DNA of 32,307 nt, taken from a virus. This document shows, in pieces, positions 7,865-21,544 of this stretch. Under the pieces are notes generated by a model. It did no database searches, was not told the origin of the DNA, and saw only the letters and a list, made by a program, of their open reading frames with translations. The DNA lies in IMG/VR virus record IMGVR_UViG_3300030380_003424, positions 1 through 32,307 of that record. One strand, 5' to 3'. The translations under genes and the position numbers were made by a program. Position 1 is the stretch's first letter, and every line of letters starts with the position of its first letter.

Positions 7865-9868
7865 ATGTCACAGAATGAAATCATGGGGAGAGTTGCCTTC
7901 GCAGCTCAATATGCTAAGCCGACCCCGAACGGAAGAGAATCATGGGAAGAGGCGATCGATCGTGTCGCTTCTATGCACAAAAAGAAATATCCAAATGAAG
8001 AAGAGCAGATCGATTGGGCCTTCTCCTTAGTCAAAGATAAGAGAGTTGTCCCGAGTCAGAGATCAACTCAATTCGGAGGAGAAGCAATCCTTAGAAGGAA
8101 CATGAGGATTTACAATTGTACTTTCTCACCTGCGGATCGTCCTCGCTTTTTCTCCGAAATGTTTTGGCTTTTACTTTGCGGATCGGGTACAGGATTCTCC
8201 GTTCGTAAAACAGATATTCTAAAGCTTCCTAGAATCATCATTAAGAACGCTTATCTCAATAGAAGATCAATGGAGTATATCGTTGAAGATTCAATCGAAG
8301 GATGGGCAAAGGCTCTCCAAGCTCTTCTTGATTCTTACTTCTTTACTGATTACTTTGATCATTCATATGATTATGAATTGGAGTTCAACTTCGACAAGGT
8401 ACGTCCCAAAGGATCTCCGATCTCGTCGGGTGGAATCGCTCCAGGTCCCGAGCCTTTGAAGAACTGTCTTGATAAGATTAAGAAGATCCTCCATTCAAGA
8501 TTCGGACAGAGACTCCGATCGATTGACGTGTTTGATATTTGTATGGAATTAAGTGCCGCTGTCCTGAGTGGAGGAGTGAGAAGATCCGCTTCAATATGTC
8601 TCTTCGATCAAGACGATGATCTCATGTTAAATGCAAAGACGGGCGATTGGTGGAGACATCATCCACATAGAGCATACGCTAATATATCCGCGACCGTTCC
8701 GACGGATGGAAGCGAGACAAAGCGGATGATCAATAAGGTCGTCAAGTTGAATAAACAATGGGGAGAACCTGGAGTTTACTTCTCTGACTCTCCAGACTTC
8801 GGAACGAATCCATGTTGTGAGATTGGCCTTTATCCATATTTCGTCCAATCCGCTTTCGGGACTCATCAAACGGATCTTCCTCTAAGTATCACTCGGAATC
8901 GAAGACGCTTGGAGATGGGCGGTTGGATGTGGAGAAGTGGATGGGCCGTTTGTAATTTAACTGAGATCAACATGGAGAAGAATCAAACTGAGGAGAAGTT
9001 CTTTGAGGCTTGCGAAGCCGCTTCATATATCGGAACTCTCCAAGCGGGATATACTGACACTGGATACTTAGGAAGAGTATCGAAGACGATTATTGAGCAA
9101 GAGGCATTGATCGGTGTCTCCTTAACAGGTATGCACGCGAATCCGCTTTCCTTTGTCCCTTCCATTCTCAGAGATGGAGCTACGATTGTAGAGGATACAA
9201 ATCAACTAACAGCGAAGAGAATTGGAATCAATCATGCCTCTCGTTTGACTTGTATTAAACCAAGTGGAAATACTTCAACTATCCTCGGGACTTCTTCGGG
9301 GATCCATCCATTCCATGCAGATCGATATATTCGGACGATCCGATTATCCAAGATCAATCCAATATGGGAACTCATCAAAGAGAATCTCCCTGAAGCGACG
9401 ATCGATCTTGATGGAGATACGGGGATTGTCCAATTCGCTTGTGTAGGGAATGGAACTCCAAGAGATCACCTTTCCGCTAAAGACTTCCTCGAGTCGGTTG
9501 CTCTCGTCCAATCTAATTGGGTAGAGACTGGATCAAGAGCAAGTCGAATTGAAGGCCTCTCTCATAATGTATCTAATACTTGTACAGTCAAGGACGATGA
9601 ATGGAATATGGTTTCCGATTGGCTTTGGAAGAATCGTCGATCTGTGAGAGGAGTCGCTCTTCTTTCGGACTATGGAGACACTGTATATAAAAACGCTCCT
9701 TTCCAAACTGTCAAAGAGGGAACTACTCAAGAAGAGGAATGGAATCGTTTAATGAGTCTTGATTGGACTTCAATCGATCTGACTTCGGTTGGAGGTGGAA
9801 ACGATGCGCATTTAACAAGCGGATGCGATGGGCTTAAATGTGAACTCCAAGCGAACGGGCAATCATAA
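7865..9868 (+). CDS. nrdJ: Adenosylcobalamin-dependent (class II) ribonucleotide reductase, monomeric type
   Basis: The 667-residue enzyme reduces ribonucleotides to deoxyribonucleotides using B12 to make the active-site thiyl radical. Recognisable parts are PSQRSTQFGG (63-72), C85 in RIYNCTF, CGSGTGFSV (105-113), SGGVRRSAS, N315-P-C317-C-E319, C363 in AVCNLTEIN, the CIKPSGNTSTILG loop (463-475), and a C-terminal Cys pair C654/C659 (C-x4-C), the shuttle that re-reduces the active site in monomeric RTPR. C85 and C363 fit the redox pair, C317 the radical cysteine, and N315/E319 its partners. Two oddities stand out. The usual NPCGE motif reads NPCCE, and about 42 residues separate it from CNL, where roughly ten is usual. 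It provides dNTPs for phage replication and ends in a 35-bp tail-to-tail overlap with the RecT-like gene. Confidence 0.93.
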   Translation: MSQNEIMGRVAFAAQYAKPTPNGRESWEEAIDRVASMHKKKYPNEEEQIDWAFSLVKDKRVVPSQRSTQFGGEAILRRNMRIYNCTFSPADRPRFFSEMFWLLLCGSGTGFSVRKTDILKLPRIIIKNAYLNRRSMEYIVEDSIEGWAKALQALLDSYFFTDYFDHSYDYELEFNFDKVRPKGSPISSGGIAPGPEPLKNCLDKIKKILHSRFGQRLRSIDVFDICMELSAAVLSGGVRRSASICLFDQDDDLMLNAKTGDWWRHHPHRAYANISATVPTDGSETKRMINKVVKLNKQWGEPGVYFSDSPDFGTNPCCEIGLYPYFVQSAFGTHQTDLPLSITRNRRRLEMGGWMWRSGWAVCNLTEINMEKNQTEEKFFEACEAASYIGTLQAGYTDTGYLGRVSKTIIEQEALIGVSLTGMHANPLSFVPSILRDGATIVEDTNQLTAKRIGINHASRLTCIKPSGNTSTILGTSSGIHPFHADRYIRTIRLSKINPIWELIKENLPEATIDLDGDTGIVQFACVGNGTPRDHLSAKDFLESVALVQSNWVETGSRASRIEGLSHNVSNTCTVKDDEWNMVSDWLWKNRRSVRGVALLSDYGDTVYKNAPFQTVKEGTTQEEEWNRLMSLDWTSIDLTSVGGGNDAHLTSGCDGLKCELQANGQS

Positions 9869-11003
9869 AGAATGTTCCTCCTCCTGGATTCGTATTGATT
9901 GCTTTCTCATATTGGTTGAAAGTCTTTTGATCAATAAGCTCCTCATTGAGTTGCTTTCTTAGCATGATCATTGTCTCACTCCATGCTCCGTTATAATGAT
10001 ATGAACTATCATGTACGGTATAACAATATTGAGCGAGATCCTTATGGATAGCAGGATCAAAGCAAGTTCCATAAAAAGAATCAAAGAGGCCTGCTAAGAC
10101 TTGGATATCCGCTTGATCCCATTCCTTAAATCCATCATATCCGATCTTCTTTGCTCCATCTTGAAAGAAGACATTGATCGGATTCATTCCGAAAGCGTAA
10201 AAGAGTTTGGCGAGTTGATCGGAGCTACATTGATTAAGCGGCTTTTGACTCATTGTCTCCATCGCGACCAAAGCTTGATCAACATCCACTCCCTCCTTCT
10301 TCAGCTCTTCGATCGTTGTGTTGACGTTTGAAAAGTCTCGGATTGGATTTGATTGCGAAGGAGGATTGATTGGAGCGGGAGGAGGAGTTTCTAATTTAGT
10401 TTTTTTTTTAGGAGCGGGAGCGGGAGGAGTGGATGATTTGGGCGCGCGCTCTCCTTCAACGGAAGCATAAACAATAGCGTCTCTTTGTGTCTCATCCTTG
10501 ATCATCATCTCGGCCAATTCATCGGGAGAGCAAGCGGTTCCTATGATCTCAGGGAAGGCAAGTCGAAGAAGAGCAGTCAAGGCGCGTTTATGCATCATCA
10601 CTTTAGGCATTTGTTTCCATGCTCTTTGATTGAGAGTTCCTCTAAGTCTTGCGTCTTCCAGAGTGTAAGTCCATGATTTAGGCTTCACATCGAATCCGAA
10701 CTCTTTGGACATCTCCAATTCATCACGACGTAAAGCAAAGACAGTGACTGATTCTTCTGTGATCTCTTCCCAAATAGCCGCGCATACTTTCTTTCCATCC
10801 TTTCCTACATAACGACGGACGGCTCCTGCCATTGCATCCGCATTGAGGGCGGGCTTTCCTTGGATACAATAAGTATGAGCGAGAGTGACTGCGACGTTGA
10901 ACTCAAAGAGATGTCCAAAAGTAAGGAAGCTCTTGACGTTATCATTGAAGTCGCGATCGGTTGAAAGGTTTTGGATTAATTGTAATTGATTATCGTTTAA
11001 CAT
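9834..11003 (-). CDS. RecT-like single-strand annealing protein with extra C-terminal domain
   Basis: Residues 1-170 carry the pattern of RecT-type annealing proteins: QGKPALNADAMAGAVRR (48-64), an ITEESVTVFALRR strand pair, a WTYTLEDARLRG helix, then WKQMPKVMMHKRALTALLR (129-147) and FPEIIG followed by SPDELAE. Such proteins bind single-stranded DNA and drive strand annealing in phage recombination. A Pro/Lys-rich linker (about 186-220) joins this core to a separate 165-residue C-terminal domain that I do not recognise. No exonuclease gene lies next to it. The gene is the last of a leftward unit headed by the XRE-type regulator and runs tail-to-tail into the reductase with a 35-bp overlap. 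The RecT assignment rests on motif pattern only. Confidence 0.7.
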   Translation of the reverse strand: MLNDNQLQLIQNLSTDRDFNDNVKSFLTFGHLFEFNVAVTLAHTYCIQGKPALNADAMAGAVRRYVGKDGKKVCAAIWEEITEESVTVFALRRDELEMSKEFGFDVKPKSWTYTLEDARLRGTLNQRAWKQMPKVMMHKRALTALLRLAFPEIIGTACSPDELAEMMIKDETQRDAIVYASVEGERAPKSSTPPAPAPKKKTKLETPPPAPINPPSQSNPIRDFSNVNTTIEELKKEGVDVDQALVAMETMSQKPLNQCSSDQLAKLFYAFGMNPINVFFQDGAKKIGYDGFKEWDQADIQVLAGLFDSFYGTCFDPAIHKDLAQYCYTVHDSSYHYNGAWSETMIMLRKQLNEELIDQKTFNQYEKAINTNPGGGTFFMIARSLGVHI

Positions 11004-17247: not shown

Positions 17248-18618
17248 ATGGATTTACAACTTAACGAGCTACAGCAAAACATAGTCGCAAGGATAAGGAG
17301 GAGAGATAAAGTCATAGCCGCTCGATGTGGATGGGGATCGGGAAAGACGAGCGGACTTGTCTTTGCTTTATGGTTTATCAGTCGAATCAGAGCGGGAACT
17401 TCCTCTCTCCTCATAACAGATACTTCTCCAAGATATCGATCTGTACTTGGTCCCGAGTTGCAAAAGTGGCTCGGTCCGCTTGGATGGACTTTTAATTCCT
17501 TGGAGATGAAGTGGAGTTGTCCTATAACAGGATCCTCAATATGGTGTCGATCCTACTTCCGACCAGGGACAAGAGAGGCAACTCACAATCCTCTTGAGGG
17601 ATTGAACATCACAAGTGGAGTCGCGTTGATCGATGAATGTCAAACATTCCGATCTGATGAAGTTGCTCAAAAGGCCTTGGGACGTTTACGCGCGGGTCCA
17701 TCTCCAATTCTCATCCTCGTCGGACTTCCTGTTTCCGATGCTTGGTGGTGTCACTTAGCAGAGAAAGCGGGATACAATCCTCTCCTCTTTACTTCCTATG
17801 TAAATCAATCCAACCTTTCGGATGATTGGTTTGAGGCGACTAAGCTCCTTCCCGAAGAGGAGCGGCTCGCGATGGTGATGAATCAACCGAGACCTCCAAG
17901 CGGCTTAATCTATAACGAATGGACGGAGAGTCATGTGGTAGATGGATTCAAGTACAAGGAGGAGATGACAGGAAGGATTGCGATTGACTGGGGATTTAGG
18001 AAGCCGAGTGTCCTGATAATGGTATATGATGAGGAGAGAGAAGCGACTGTTATTCTCCATGAGATCAATCCTCAAGAAGTCACGATCTCCCAACTCTCCA
18101 AGCTTATCCTTTCGATCGCGTGGCCTCGCAAATCAAAGGACTCCGCTCCAGGTCCGCGGATATGGTTGGATAGTGGAATTGCGGATAAAGCGGGAGCCGC
18201 TCGGAATGATCAAACAGGAAGGACAGCATTTAGAGAGATAATGAAAGCTCCCGATCATGGAGGGATTGGACTTCCTCTTCGATATACGACCGATCCCGTA
18301 TTGACGAACGTCCTTAACGGAATCCAAAAATTAAAGCGCGCCTTCGCTCGGAAAAAATATCTTTGTACAAGAGAGGTGTGGACGAGAGGAGAGAGAGCTG
18401 TCGGAAACTCATTCAGAAAAGCAATCCTCTCATATGGATGGAGTCCGACAAAGGACGAACCGAAGAAGGATGGGAGAGAGGATCCGTTGGACGCTCTTCG
18501 ATACGATTGTATAATTCATTACTGGAGTGATCTATCTACTCCATCATACTCTCCAACATCCCGAGCTAAGAAGTCAGAGAGACGAACTCGGAGGATCGGG
18601 AGAAAGGAATCATTTTGA
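17248..18618 (+). CDS. terL: Terminase large subunit
   Basis: The 456-residue protein has an N-terminal packaging ATPase and a C-terminal nuclease. Walker A is GWGSGKT (28-34) and Walker B VALIDE (125-130), with the catalytic E130 followed by CQTF as in many terminases. RNase H-like nuclease acids are visible at D247 (IAIDWGF), D308 (IWLDSG) and D415 in DPLDALRYD. It pumps DNA into the prohead and cuts concatemers. A ribosome site overlaps the end of the preceding gene. Its TGA at 18616 sits within the junction where two further genes start in the other two frames. Confidence 0.95.
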   Translation: MDLQLNELQQNIVARIRRRDKVIAARCGWGSGKTSGLVFALWFISRIRAGTSSLLITDTSPRYRSVLGPELQKWLGPLGWTFNSLEMKWSCPITGSSIWCRSYFRPGTREATHNPLEGLNITSGVALIDECQTFRSDEVAQKALGRLRAGPSPILILVGLPVSDAWWCHLAEKAGYNPLLFTSYVNQSNLSDDWFEATKLLPEEERLAMVMNQPRPPSGLIYNEWTESHVVDGFKYKEEMTGRIAIDWGFRKPSVLIMVYDEEREATVILHEINPQEVTISQLSKLILSIAWPRKSKDSAPGPRIWLDSGIADKAGAARNDQTGRTAFREIMKAPDHGGIGLPLRYTTDPVLTNVLNGIQKLKRAFARKKYLCTREVWTRGERAVGNSFRKAILSYGWSPTKDEPKKDGREDPLDALRYDCIIHYWSDLSTPSYSPTSRAKKSERRTRRIGRKESF

Positions 18619-19889
18619 CGTGGATATTACCAAAGAACTTACACACATCTCCCTTTGTGCAGGATATGGAGGGATTGACATTGGACTTAAACGAGTCCTC
18701 CCAAATCTGCGAACAGTCGCTTTTAGTGAGATCGAAGCCTATGCGGTCGCGAACTTGGTTTCAAAAATGGAAGCGGGACTCTTGGACGTCGCTCCTATAT
18801 GGACGGATCTTAAAACATTCCCATTCGTCGAGTTTCGTGGAAAAGTGGACATCCTCTCTGGAGGCTTCCCTTGTCAACCGTTCTCAGCTGCGGGACGTCG
18901 AAGAGGAGATGAAGATCCTCGACATCTCTTCCCATATATCAAGAGAGGAATCGCTCTTCTCAGACCTTCCATTGTTTTCCTTGAGAACGTCGAAGGAATC
19001 ATCTCCTCAAAGCTCGGAGAAGGATGGAGCGATCGAAAAGGAACGCCCGTTCTCCTCCATGTTCTCCGAGAGTTGGAAAGGTTGGATTATAAAGCGACGG
19101 CAGGAATATTTAGCGCGCGAGAGATCGGTGCTCCACATCAAAGAAAAAGAGTCTTTATCATGGCCTACTCCGATCAAAGAGGACTACAAAAGACGAGAAC
19201 CCAACTCACGACAGCAAGGACTCCCGAATATAGTCCTCAATGGCCCGCAAGAAGAGGAGAAGAGCAAAAAGATTGGGAGCCTTTGCGAACTCTATCCAAC
19301 TCCGATGCTAGGAGGACACGAAGGAGGATCAATCAAATACTATCAAAGGAGGAGGGAGATCGGAAAACAGATCGATCTTCACGGACAAATCACACTAGAT
19401 CAGAAAGTTTACAATGGACAACTGAATCCCCGTTGGGTGGAAACGTTAATGGGAGTTCCGATTGGATGGACTATAGCGACGTGTGCAAATCCGTATGTAA
19501 TAGAACGGATGAACTCAGACTCCTTGGGAATGGAGTCGTCCCCGCGACAGCTGAAAGAGCCTTCCGAATCCTTTGGAATCAACTGGGCGACTCCTAATGT
19601 CAGAGACCATAAAGGATGTCAAACCGAGGGATTCTTGGATAGAGGATACGGATATCAACTTCCCGATCATGTCAGAGAGGAGAGCTTGATTCATTCAAGA
19701 AAGTTTCAAGAACTTGACTCTTGTATAATTGGATCGTGTAAAAATGATCAACCTGTCTACTCTTATACAAAACTTATAGAATACTTTTGTCAATCTATGG
19801 ATGTGATGGAGGCAATCGATCACATTAATTTTAATTTGCTCTCAGGGATGGAGACTCAAGATTATAGTATTGAGGAAGATTGGGAATAA
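18615..19889 (+). CDS. Long protein encoded in the +1 frame over the methyltransferase gene
   Basis: This 424-residue frame stays open through the whole methyltransferase gene (18620-19597) and 292 bases beyond it, where nothing else is encoded. TTG at 18615 has AAAGGA at the ideal 6-base distance (18603-18608). The later half carries protein-like motifs that do not follow from methyltransferase conservation: WPTPIKEDYK (183-192), YPTP (227-230), LNPRWVETLMGVPIGWT (270-286) and WATPNVRDHKG (324-334). W-x-TP modules and LNP-x-WVE-LMG-P-GW are common in phage proteins associated with cytosine methyltransferases. The first half is rich in Ser, Lys, Arg and Trp and mirrors conserved methyltransferase motifs in another frame. 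The function is unknown, perhaps an accessory or specificity protein. It is far longer than any clear shadow frame in this genome. Confidence 0.65.
   Translation: MTWILPKNLHTSPFVQDMEGLTLDLNESSQICEQSLLVRSKPMRSRTWFQKWKRDSWTSLLYGRILKHSHSSSFVEKWTSSLEASLVNRSQLRDVEEEMKILDISSHISREESLFSDLPLFSLRTSKESSPQSSEKDGAIEKERPFSSMFSESWKGWIIKRRQEYLARERSVLHIKEKESLSWPTPIKEDYKRREPNSRQQGLPNIVLNGPQEEEKSKKIGSLCELYPTPMLGGHEGGSIKYYQRRREIGKQIDLHGQITLDQKVYNGQLNPRWVETLMGVPIGWTIATCANPYVIERMNSDSLGMESSPRQLKEPSESFGINWATPNVRDHKGCQTEGFLDRGYGYQLPDHVREESLIHSRKFQELDSCIIGSCKNDQPVYSYTKLIEYFCQSMDVMEAIDHINFNLLSGMETQDYSIEEDWE
18620..19597 (+). CDS. DNA cytosine-5 methyltransferase
   Basis: The enzyme (325 residues from GTG 18620) transfers a methyl group from S-adenosylmethionine to cytosine in a specific DNA site. 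Motif I is ISLCAGYGGIDIGL (10-23), motif IV GGFPCQPFS with catalytic C85, motif VI LENV (121-124), motif VIII GAPHQRKRVF (170-179), and motifs IX/X appear in RTDELRLLGNGVVPATAERAF (295-315). The region between motifs VIII and IX (185-265) is polar and Arg/Ser/Thr-rich and would be the recognition domain. Upstream in-frame codons only mirror terL, so the GTG just before motif I is preferred. AAAGGA lies 11 bases before it. It probably protects phage DNA from restriction. Target-site specificity cannot be read from the sequence. Confidence 0.92.
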   Translation: MDITKELTHISLCAGYGGIDIGLKRVLPNLRTVAFSEIEAYAVANLVSKMEAGLLDVAPIWTDLKTFPFVEFRGKVDILSGGFPCQPFSAAGRRRGDEDPRHLFPYIKRGIALLRPSIVFLENVEGIISSKLGEGWSDRKGTPVLLHVLRELERLDYKATAGIFSAREIGAPHQRKRVFIMAYSDQRGLQKTRTQLTTARTPEYSPQWPARRGEEQKDWEPLRTLSNSDARRTRRRINQILSKEEGDRKTDRSSRTNHTRSESLQWTTESPLGGNVNGSSDWMDYSDVCKSVCNRTDELRLLGNGVVPATAERAFRILWNQLGDS

Positions 19890-20122: not shown

Positions 20123-21544
20123 ATGAGCAACGAGCAAGACGAGAGAACTCCCGATCATCTCAAAGCGATGTATCCAAGATTTAGAACCCGCGGTATTAGT
20201 GGGACTCAAGTCTCGGGAGGGAAGATCACAGGCAAGGAACGCAATCCAAAACTGACAGGACTTAATTGGGTCCAAGAGGCAGAGGATATGCTAGCGACCG
20301 ATCCTGTCGTCCGTCGATCATGGCATATGTTAAGACAGACTCTTCTCTCTGCGACTTGGAGATTTGTTCCAGGAGTCGAAGGAGATGAGACCTCGGAAGA
20401 ACTTGCACGCTTTGCTAATGAAGCTTATGGATTCGATGGATACGCGGGACAAATGTCCACATCATGGGAAGAGCAATTAACTTATCTATGGGAGTTCGTT
20501 CCTGTCGGTTATAGATACGCAGAGGAGATCTATAGAGTCGGTCCCGATTCAAGAGGCAAGGTCCGCGTATGGTTAGACTATTATGCAGACAGAGAACCTT
20601 CAGCTCATAATCGTTGGTTGAGTAGAGATGGACAGCACTTGGATGGAGTCCTCCAGAACGTTGTCGGTTATACCTATACTCCCGAACCTATTCCATCCAA
20701 CAAACTTCTCCTCCTTACATTGAATCGGACGGGATCAAACTTCGAAGGAATCGGGATGCTTCGTCCCGTTTGGTGGTGGTGGAGAACTAAGCAAAGAGTA
20801 TCGAATCTCATGTGCGTAGGTTTGGAGAGATGGGCCTTGCCTACTCCAAAAGTAAAGGTCGATCGTTCTCAAGCGGAGATGCAAGGATTAACGGACGCGG
20901 ATATTAGTACAATGATTGAGGACGCGGCGGATCAAGCGGAAGCCTTCCTCTCAACTGAACTTGCTTATCTTGTCGAGTCTCCTGTCATTCAATTCGATTC
21001 CTATGCAATTACTCCAAATCTATACAGTCAAGGTCCACTCGACATCATCAAAGAATGTGACAATCAAATCTCTCAAGCCTTCCTCGCTCAATTCGCTAAT
21101 CTTGGGATAAGCGATTCGGGATCGCGATCGGTTGGAGAAGTCCACCTCTCAGTATTCCGAAGAGCCGCGATCAATCTATGCGATATCGTAGCCGCTCAAG
21201 TTTCGGGAGTAGATCGAAGAGGAGGAGGAACGATTGGAAGATTGATCCGATGGAACTATGGCGCGATTGATCCAAGTAAACTCCCTCGTCTAACTCATAC
21301 GGGATTGGATACTGACGATTTGGCGGAATCTCTTGGAATGCTTCCAGGTCTTGTCCAATCGGGCCTCCTTACTCCCGACGATGATTTGGAGAGAGCAATC
21401 CGAGAAAGACTTGGAGCGGGAGATCTTCCCGAAGTTGCCGAGCGCACTCCTTTGGAGAGATCCATGAATAAGGGAGGAGGAGTTGCATCCTTTGCCGAAA
21501 CTCTCCTCAAACGAAAAGGAAGAGACTATGGTCAAGAAGATTAG
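20123..21544 (+). CDS. Portal protein (Mu gp29/DUF935-like)
   Basis: The 473-residue protein forms the ring through which DNA enters and leaves the capsid. It follows the Mu gp29-type portal pattern: an N-terminal DPVVRRSWHMLRQTLLSATW segment, then a WEFVPVGYRYAEEIYR strand region, then SNKLLLLTLNRTGSNFEGIG leading into MLRPVWWWWRTKQ, and later ISQAFLAQFANLG. The C-terminus has Pro/Glu-rich loops (GDLPEVAERTPLERS). It follows the terminase cluster and precedes the protease, as expected. A ribosome site (GAGGA) precedes the ATG. The last 17 bases overlap the protease start. Confidence 0.9.
   Translation: MSNEQDERTPDHLKAMYPRFRTRGISGTQVSGGKITGKERNPKLTGLNWVQEAEDMLATDPVVRRSWHMLRQTLLSATWRFVPGVEGDETSEELARFANEAYGFDGYAGQMSTSWEEQLTYLWEFVPVGYRYAEEIYRVGPDSRGKVRVWLDYYADREPSAHNRWLSRDGQHLDGVLQNVVGYTYTPEPIPSNKLLLLTLNRTGSNFEGIGMLRPVWWWWRTKQRVSNLMCVGLERWALPTPKVKVDRSQAEMQGLTDADISTMIEDAADQAEAFLSTELAYLVESPVIQFDSYAITPNLYSQGPLDIIKECDNQISQAFLAQFANLGISDSGSRSVGEVHLSVFRRAAINLCDIVAAQVSGVDRRGGGTIGRLIRWNYGAIDPSKLPRLTHTGLDTDDLAESLGMLPGLVQSGLLTPDDDLERAIRERLGAGDLPEVAERTPLERSMNKGGGVASFAETLLKRKGRDYGQED

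Follow-up and report, generated by a model that had tools for sequence, protein, structure and literature searches.

Superposed genes for a probable two-polypeptide cytosine-5 DNA methyltransferase in a phage genome

The IMG/VR virus record IMGVR_UViG_3300030380_003424 (32,307 bases, analyzed over its whole length and called the window below) carries a cytosine-5 DNA methyltransferase (C5-methyltransferase) gene, alpha, between the terminase gene terL (17248-18618) and the portal gene (20123-21544, phrog_113). Alpha is wholly contained in a longer open reading frame (ORF), beta, which is in the +1 frame relative to alpha. Is beta a gene, and if so, what has its product to do with the methyltransferase? 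The available evidence argues with good confidence for a locus that encodes a two-polypeptide C5-methyltransferase, the subunit genes of which are superposed in two frames.

Two constrained frames over the same DNA

The overlap of alpha and beta amounts to 978 bp, and both ORFs are intact, as an earlier note on this DNA had described (about 980 bp). The same note placed the terL stop, the TTG start of beta and the GTG start of alpha at one spot, and all three do lie within 8 nt (at 18616-18618, 18615 and 18620, respectively). The GTG is the realistic start of alpha, which ends in a TAA codon (19595-19597), and the well-spaced ribosome site ascribed to beta is present as AAGGA, 6 nt ahead of the TTG. 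Other gene-overlapping open frames in the window reach 161-165 amino acids, matching the earlier figure.

The second frame was examined further in 80 IMG/VR loci obtained by searching with alpha (the window-like set). Nearly all have a +1 frame that is open across most of the methyltransferase gene (∼190-560 codons), as opposed to only ∼30-130 for the +2 frame, and the pattern LNPxWVExLMG, wherever present in an intact gene, is always found in the +1 frame. When synonymous codons were shuffled, with the alpha protein and its codon usage held fixed, every one of 1000 shuffles of the window introduced stops in the +1 frame (mean, 6.6). Among 55 non-redundant homologues, 132 stops were observed in the +1 frame versus 442 expected from shuffling, and the +2 frame exhibited no such depletion (1195 versus 1253). 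The +1 frame and its motifs thus stay open in diverged homologues, which was one of the checks proposed earlier.

The conservation of the +1 product, with alpha fixed, was assessed for pairs under 62% identical. It exceeded the shuffled null at motifs I-III (z 32), VII-VIII (z 20) and IX (z 31), and weakly at IV-VI (z 4). Motif X showed no excess (z -4), and its third positions were found to differ in 70% of the comparisons; since motif X belongs to the same genes, shared ancestry does not explain the excess elsewhere. In the reverse test, with beta fixed, frame 0 (that of alpha) was above the null throughout (z 18-40), except in the motif IX segment (z 2.4). The two-way tests therefore locate the constraint at motif X in alpha only and that at motif IX in beta only.

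Other comparisons followed the same trend. Between the window and locus L001, third positions differ in 120 of 451 codons of terL and in 15 of 186 codons of the N-terminal part of alpha (Fisher test, 3.7e-8). The P2-like phages, an independent set, repeat the pattern of constraint from motif IV to IX (third-position differences of 0.26-0.35), with much less before motif IV (0.52) or at motif X (0.59). Members of the R23.9-like set resemble one another too closely for an interpretable shuffle test. Beyond the alpha stop, the unique tail of beta has a normal coding pattern with an ordinary third-position excess (10, 9 and 22 differences at beta positions 1, 2 and 3 over 40 codons, window versus L006), and its WATPNVRDHKG region is kept in both L006 and L007. 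Two further points raised in the earlier note, constraint in both frames and codon constraint past the alpha stop, gave positive results, and the conserved overlapping gene pair that it envisaged is strongly supported by a +1 frame and motifs that are open and constrained in diverged homologues.

The two starts commonly overlap. The sequence ATGTG occurs at the start in 41 of the 55 relatives, with beta on the ATG, alpha on the GTG and one G common to both. In 31 of these 55 relatives alpha has a single possible start, which in 23 cases is the GTG of ATGTG. The corresponding sequence in the window is TTGACGTG, not ATGTG. One ribosome site (AAGGA in the window) could serve both frames.

Division of the methyltransferase motifs between alpha and beta

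Alpha matches PF00145 (2.5e-37) and contains motifs I, IV (PCQ), VI (ENV), VIII and X, which are invariant or nearly so in the sequence alignment. Motif IX is not in the alpha polypeptide: its best match sits in the +1 frame, and frame 0 is hardly constrained there. In an AlphaFold model of alpha, built with 51 sequences, motifs I-VIII mostly score above 80 and motif X about 96, and the values at residues 195-300, where the small domain would lie, are mostly 35-56. The best solved match of this model in Foldseek was M.HhaI, over about 180 residues. As modelled, alpha is a large catalytic domain, without a folded small domain and without motif IX. In M.HhaI and M.HaeIII, most of the motifs are located in the large domain, and the variable region and motif IX in the small domain (PMC3404938). 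Alpha matches their large domain, and the cut between their two domains corresponds to the division between alpha and beta; unlike the window pair, however, these enzymes are single chains with all motifs in one frame.

The profile of phrog_1008 (‘DNA methyltransferase’) matches residues 69-243 of the window beta. Four other nested betas, from Tadhana, R23.9, ABMM1 and ev129, match it as well (1.6e-74 for Tadhana to 5e-28). So do the split C-terminal methyltransferase subunits of mycobacteriophage Hexamo (gp88, 4e-84) and Gordonia phage Geodirt (1e-76). In the single-chain enzymes of ShiLan (residues 196-388, 2e-61) and Pelosinus L157 (residues 186-397, 7e-25) the match falls in the C-terminal half. 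These profile matches make beta a homologue of C5-methyltransferase C-terminal halves, in both single-chain and split enzymes, and the ShiLan and Pelosinus enzymes are natural fusions that link beta to the region after motif VIII. The description of phrog_1008 contains no hint at frequent +1-frame encoding within another methyltransferase gene. The pattern LNPxWVExLMGxPxGWT occurs in frame in the single-chain phage enzymes of Magnar (VSAEFYEWLMGLPRGW) and ShiLan (LAPAFSEWMMGWPAGW), as does the classical motif IX form LTPRECxRLQGFPD in that of Invicta; sequence comparison thereby identifies the former as C5-methyltransferase motif IX. The earlier note had tied LNPxWVE to methyltransferases. The association stands, but the motif is more than linked to them, being motif IX itself and absent from alpha. 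Judged by homology, beta is most likely the DNA-recognition part that alpha lacks.

Two variations of beta were observed among the loci. An ORF of 1067 amino acids in L046 (4005-7205) joins it in frame to a PD-(D/E)XK nuclease domain (PF12705, 1.4e-5). In five others (L014, L016, L022, L024 and L041) a stop near codon 107 of beta is followed two codons on by an ATG, which yields separate N-terminal and C-terminal ORFs; the N-terminal one has 107 amino acids in L014, L016, L022 and L041.

Table 1. Positions in the window of the alpha and beta ORFs and of their sequence elements
Feature	Position	Strand	Description	Basis
Shine-Dalgarno-like AAGGA	18604-18608	+	6 nt 5' of beta TTG, 11 nt 5' of alpha GTG	Sequence
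Beta ORF	18615-19889	+	TTG start, 424 amino acids; predicted target-recognition/motif IX subunit	phrog_1008 (5e-17), codon-shuffle tests
Beta N-terminal region	18615-18930	+	Over alpha motifs I-IV	Conserved in window clade; z = 32 at I-III; helices
Alpha ORF	18620-19597	+	GTG start, 325 amino acids; C5-methyltransferase catalytic domain, motifs I-VIII and X	
Alpha motif I	18644-18679	+	HISLCAGYGGID	
Alpha motif IV	18860-18886	+	GGFPCQPFS, catalytic Cys	
Alpha motif VI	18983-18991	+	ENV	
Alpha motif VIII	19139-19159	+	QRKRVFI	
Beta WPTP	19161-19172	+	Element 1 of three [W/Y]-[P/A]-T-P	
Beta YPTP	19293-19304	+	Element 2 of three [W/Y]-[P/A]-T-P	
Beta motif IX	19422-19472	+	LNPRWVETLMGVPIGWT; alpha reads ESPLGGNVNGSSDWMD here, hardly constrained beyond the demands of beta	
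Alpha motif X	19517-19564	+	RLLGNGVVPATAERAF; +1 frame without constraint here	
Beta C-terminal part	19584-19889	+	Mostly past the alpha stop; opens with element 3, WATPNVRDHKG	

Elsewhere, the window contains a ribonucleotide reductase-like gene (phrog_367, 7865-9868) and a gene for a RecT-like annealing protein (9834-11003) on the opposite strand.

A putative heterodimer, its precedents and its alternatives

In the favoured explanation, the fold of alpha would be that of the large catalytic domain, to which motifs I-VIII and X belong. Beta carries motif IX and the region between VIII and IX, where the [W/Y][P/A]TP elements occupy the place of the target-recognition domain. Beta would be translated from a start adjoining that of alpha, and the two proteins would associate in a heterodimer, to which alpha would bring S-adenosylmethionine binding and the catalytic Cys, and beta the recognition of DNA. 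In terms of the M.HhaI/M.HaeIII layout, alpha corresponds to the large domain and beta to the small one, so that the heterodimer would methylate cytosine within a target sequence that beta, for the most part, selects. Both the translation of beta and the formation of the complex are steps that we infer from the sequences. The enzyme may be an orphan modification enzyme that guards the phage DNA against restriction.

The closest precedent is M.EcoHK31I, a YGGCCR two-polypeptide C5-methyltransferase. Its small polypeptide, of reportedly about 176 amino acids, is said in a 1995 paper to be encoded in an alternative frame inside the larger gene. The large polypeptide contains motifs I-VIII and X together with a predicted target-recognition domain, and the small one motif IX (PMC3404938). 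The window pair divides the motifs in the same way, and from this likeness of motif layout it most likely works like M.EcoHK31I. In contrast to that enzyme, alpha of the window lies entirely inside beta, and beta has 424 residues, with an N-terminal domain that covers motifs I-III and, past alpha, a tail with a further WATP element; the starts, moreover, are adjoining or shared, and none of the neighbouring genes examined was recognised as a restriction gene. M.AquI is likewise divided between two polypeptides after motif VIII, but its small polypeptide carries both motifs IX and X (PMC3404938), whereas motif X stays in alpha here. An M.AquI-like division with overlapping frames was detected in Hexamo (gp89/gp88), Geodirt, L102 and L180. 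Overlapping split ORFs, the second in the +1 frame with motifs IX and X, were observed in mycobacteriophage and Gordonia phage methyltransferases (L090, 1489-2485; L096, 1486-2707).

Several points weigh against the proposed heterodimer. The target-recognition domain of M.EcoHK31I is described in the large subunit, whereas homology puts the variable region of the window pair in beta. The N-terminal region of beta over motifs I-III has no counterpart in known or single-chain methyltransferases. The AlphaFold model of beta is poor (mean predicted local distance difference test score, 55), apart from some helices, such that a small-domain fold of beta is a prediction from homology. Beta of the window starts with TTG, whereas its relatives usually have ATG.

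Alpha might be self-sufficient, and beta an independent protein, such as a regulator or counter-defence factor, encoded in the overlap by happenstance. An N-terminal domain of beta unrelated to methyltransferases would fit this explanation, which is nevertheless unlikely: the motif IX missing from alpha is carried by beta, the C-terminal part of beta has its homologue in the C-terminal half that single-chain methyltransferases carry in frame, the constraint is exclusive to one frame at motif IX and at motif X, and the interior of alpha is predicted to be poorly ordered. A beta that is altogether an unrelated phage protein is improbable, given the phrog_1008 homology to methyltransferase C-termini. 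A single fused polypeptide, produced by programmed frameshifting from alpha into beta, is very unlikely. Single-chain relatives with motifs I-VIII, the TP region, IX and X in one frame are known (ShiLan L089 and Pelosinus L157), but two shifts in opposite directions would be required for a fusion with both IX and X, motif X being back in frame 0; furthermore, the start of beta is next to that of alpha in nearly all window-like relatives, and the conservation of beta extends to the 5' side of every plausible shift site. Finally, although some similarity arises in a shadow frame whenever the main frame is conserved (the null values are above zero), an untranslated +1 frame that alpha keeps open through its codon usage and protein constraint is hardly credible and as a chance product is ruled out by the codon-shuffle nulls, the +2-frame control, a third-position divergence below that of terL in the same genome pair, the absence of the effect at motif X of the same genes and a motif IX segment conserved in the +1 frame rather than in frame 0.

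Spread and annotation of the nested pair

The distribution of motif IX among the loci supports the two-polypeptide explanation: an alpha that lacks IX in frame has it in the +1 frame. Loci were scanned with models of motifs IX and X and termed nested where IX was in the +1 frame and X in frame 0. The arrangement was found in 72 of the 80 window-like loci, 78 of 80 P2-like loci and all 25 classified R23.9-like loci, the IMG/VR sets having been selected by alpha; it was also found in 68 of 79 GTDB loci, a set selected by the beta motif itself, so that this last fraction is no independent evidence. In total, 252 of the 269 classified loci were nested, 9 were canonical, 5 were split (IX and X in the +1 frame) and 3 were single-chain enzymes of the LMG type. 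The nested arrangement was absent from the methyltransferases with an in-frame motif IX (the 9 canonical and 3 LMG-type loci). In a tree of the catalytic part (unrooted and of a quick kind), the nested state is spread across very different lineages with about 5 changes, which suggests that the arrangement is old, with occasional conversions. The record titles of the GTDB loci include Paenibacillus and other Bacillota, Bacteroidetes, Proteobacteria, Planctomycetes, Verrucomicrobia and Chloroflexi, and many of these loci may be prophages. One Roseovarius assembly contains, on one chromosome, five loci that match the nested pair in the same way (L124, L125, L127, L128 and L129), as if on repeated prophages. 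In five other loci (L137, L145, L147, L154 and L176) the frame relations of motifs IV, IX and X are shifted, perhaps in decayed genes or through sequencing errors.

The arrangement is widespread yet often misannotated. Separate annotation of the second frame in some phages, which the earlier note mentioned, was found in Tadhana, while Ssp-JY39 has only beta annotated. In two very similar Synechococcus phage loci (L004 and L097), one record contains only beta (‘hypothetical protein’) and the other only alpha (‘cytosine-specific DNA methyltransferase’). The note knew of no earlier description of the pair; a search of the literature, confined to open-licence papers, found none of the nested arrangement in phages, although M.EcoHK31I is a general precedent (PMC3404938). 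What is new relative to that enzyme is the full containment of alpha, the extra N-terminal domain and tail of beta, the usual overlapping start ATGTG and the breadth of occurrence.

A wider interpretation has about even chances: that these loci form a class of C5-methyltransferases, very widespread in phages and bacteria, in which one stretch of DNA encodes the catalytic and the recognition domain as separate proteins, usually from ATGTG starts in the window clade, and frameshifts within that stretch interconvert single-chain, split and nested forms. The overlap would fix the ratio of the subunits and tie changes in the specificity of beta to simultaneous changes in alpha, and the beta of the window clade would have gained its N-terminal domain.

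If the two-polypeptide reading is true, a curiosity of one E. coli enzyme becomes a general gene architecture, in hundreds of loci from several bacterial phyla, and nearly 1 kb of DNA codes for both subunits of one enzyme while constrained in both frames. Records often retain one frame only, and the annotation of many phage ‘methyltransferases’ may thus cover just half of the enzyme; alpha cloned alone may be inactive. The series of single-chain, split and nested forms would, in turn, allow tests of how a long gene overlap originates.
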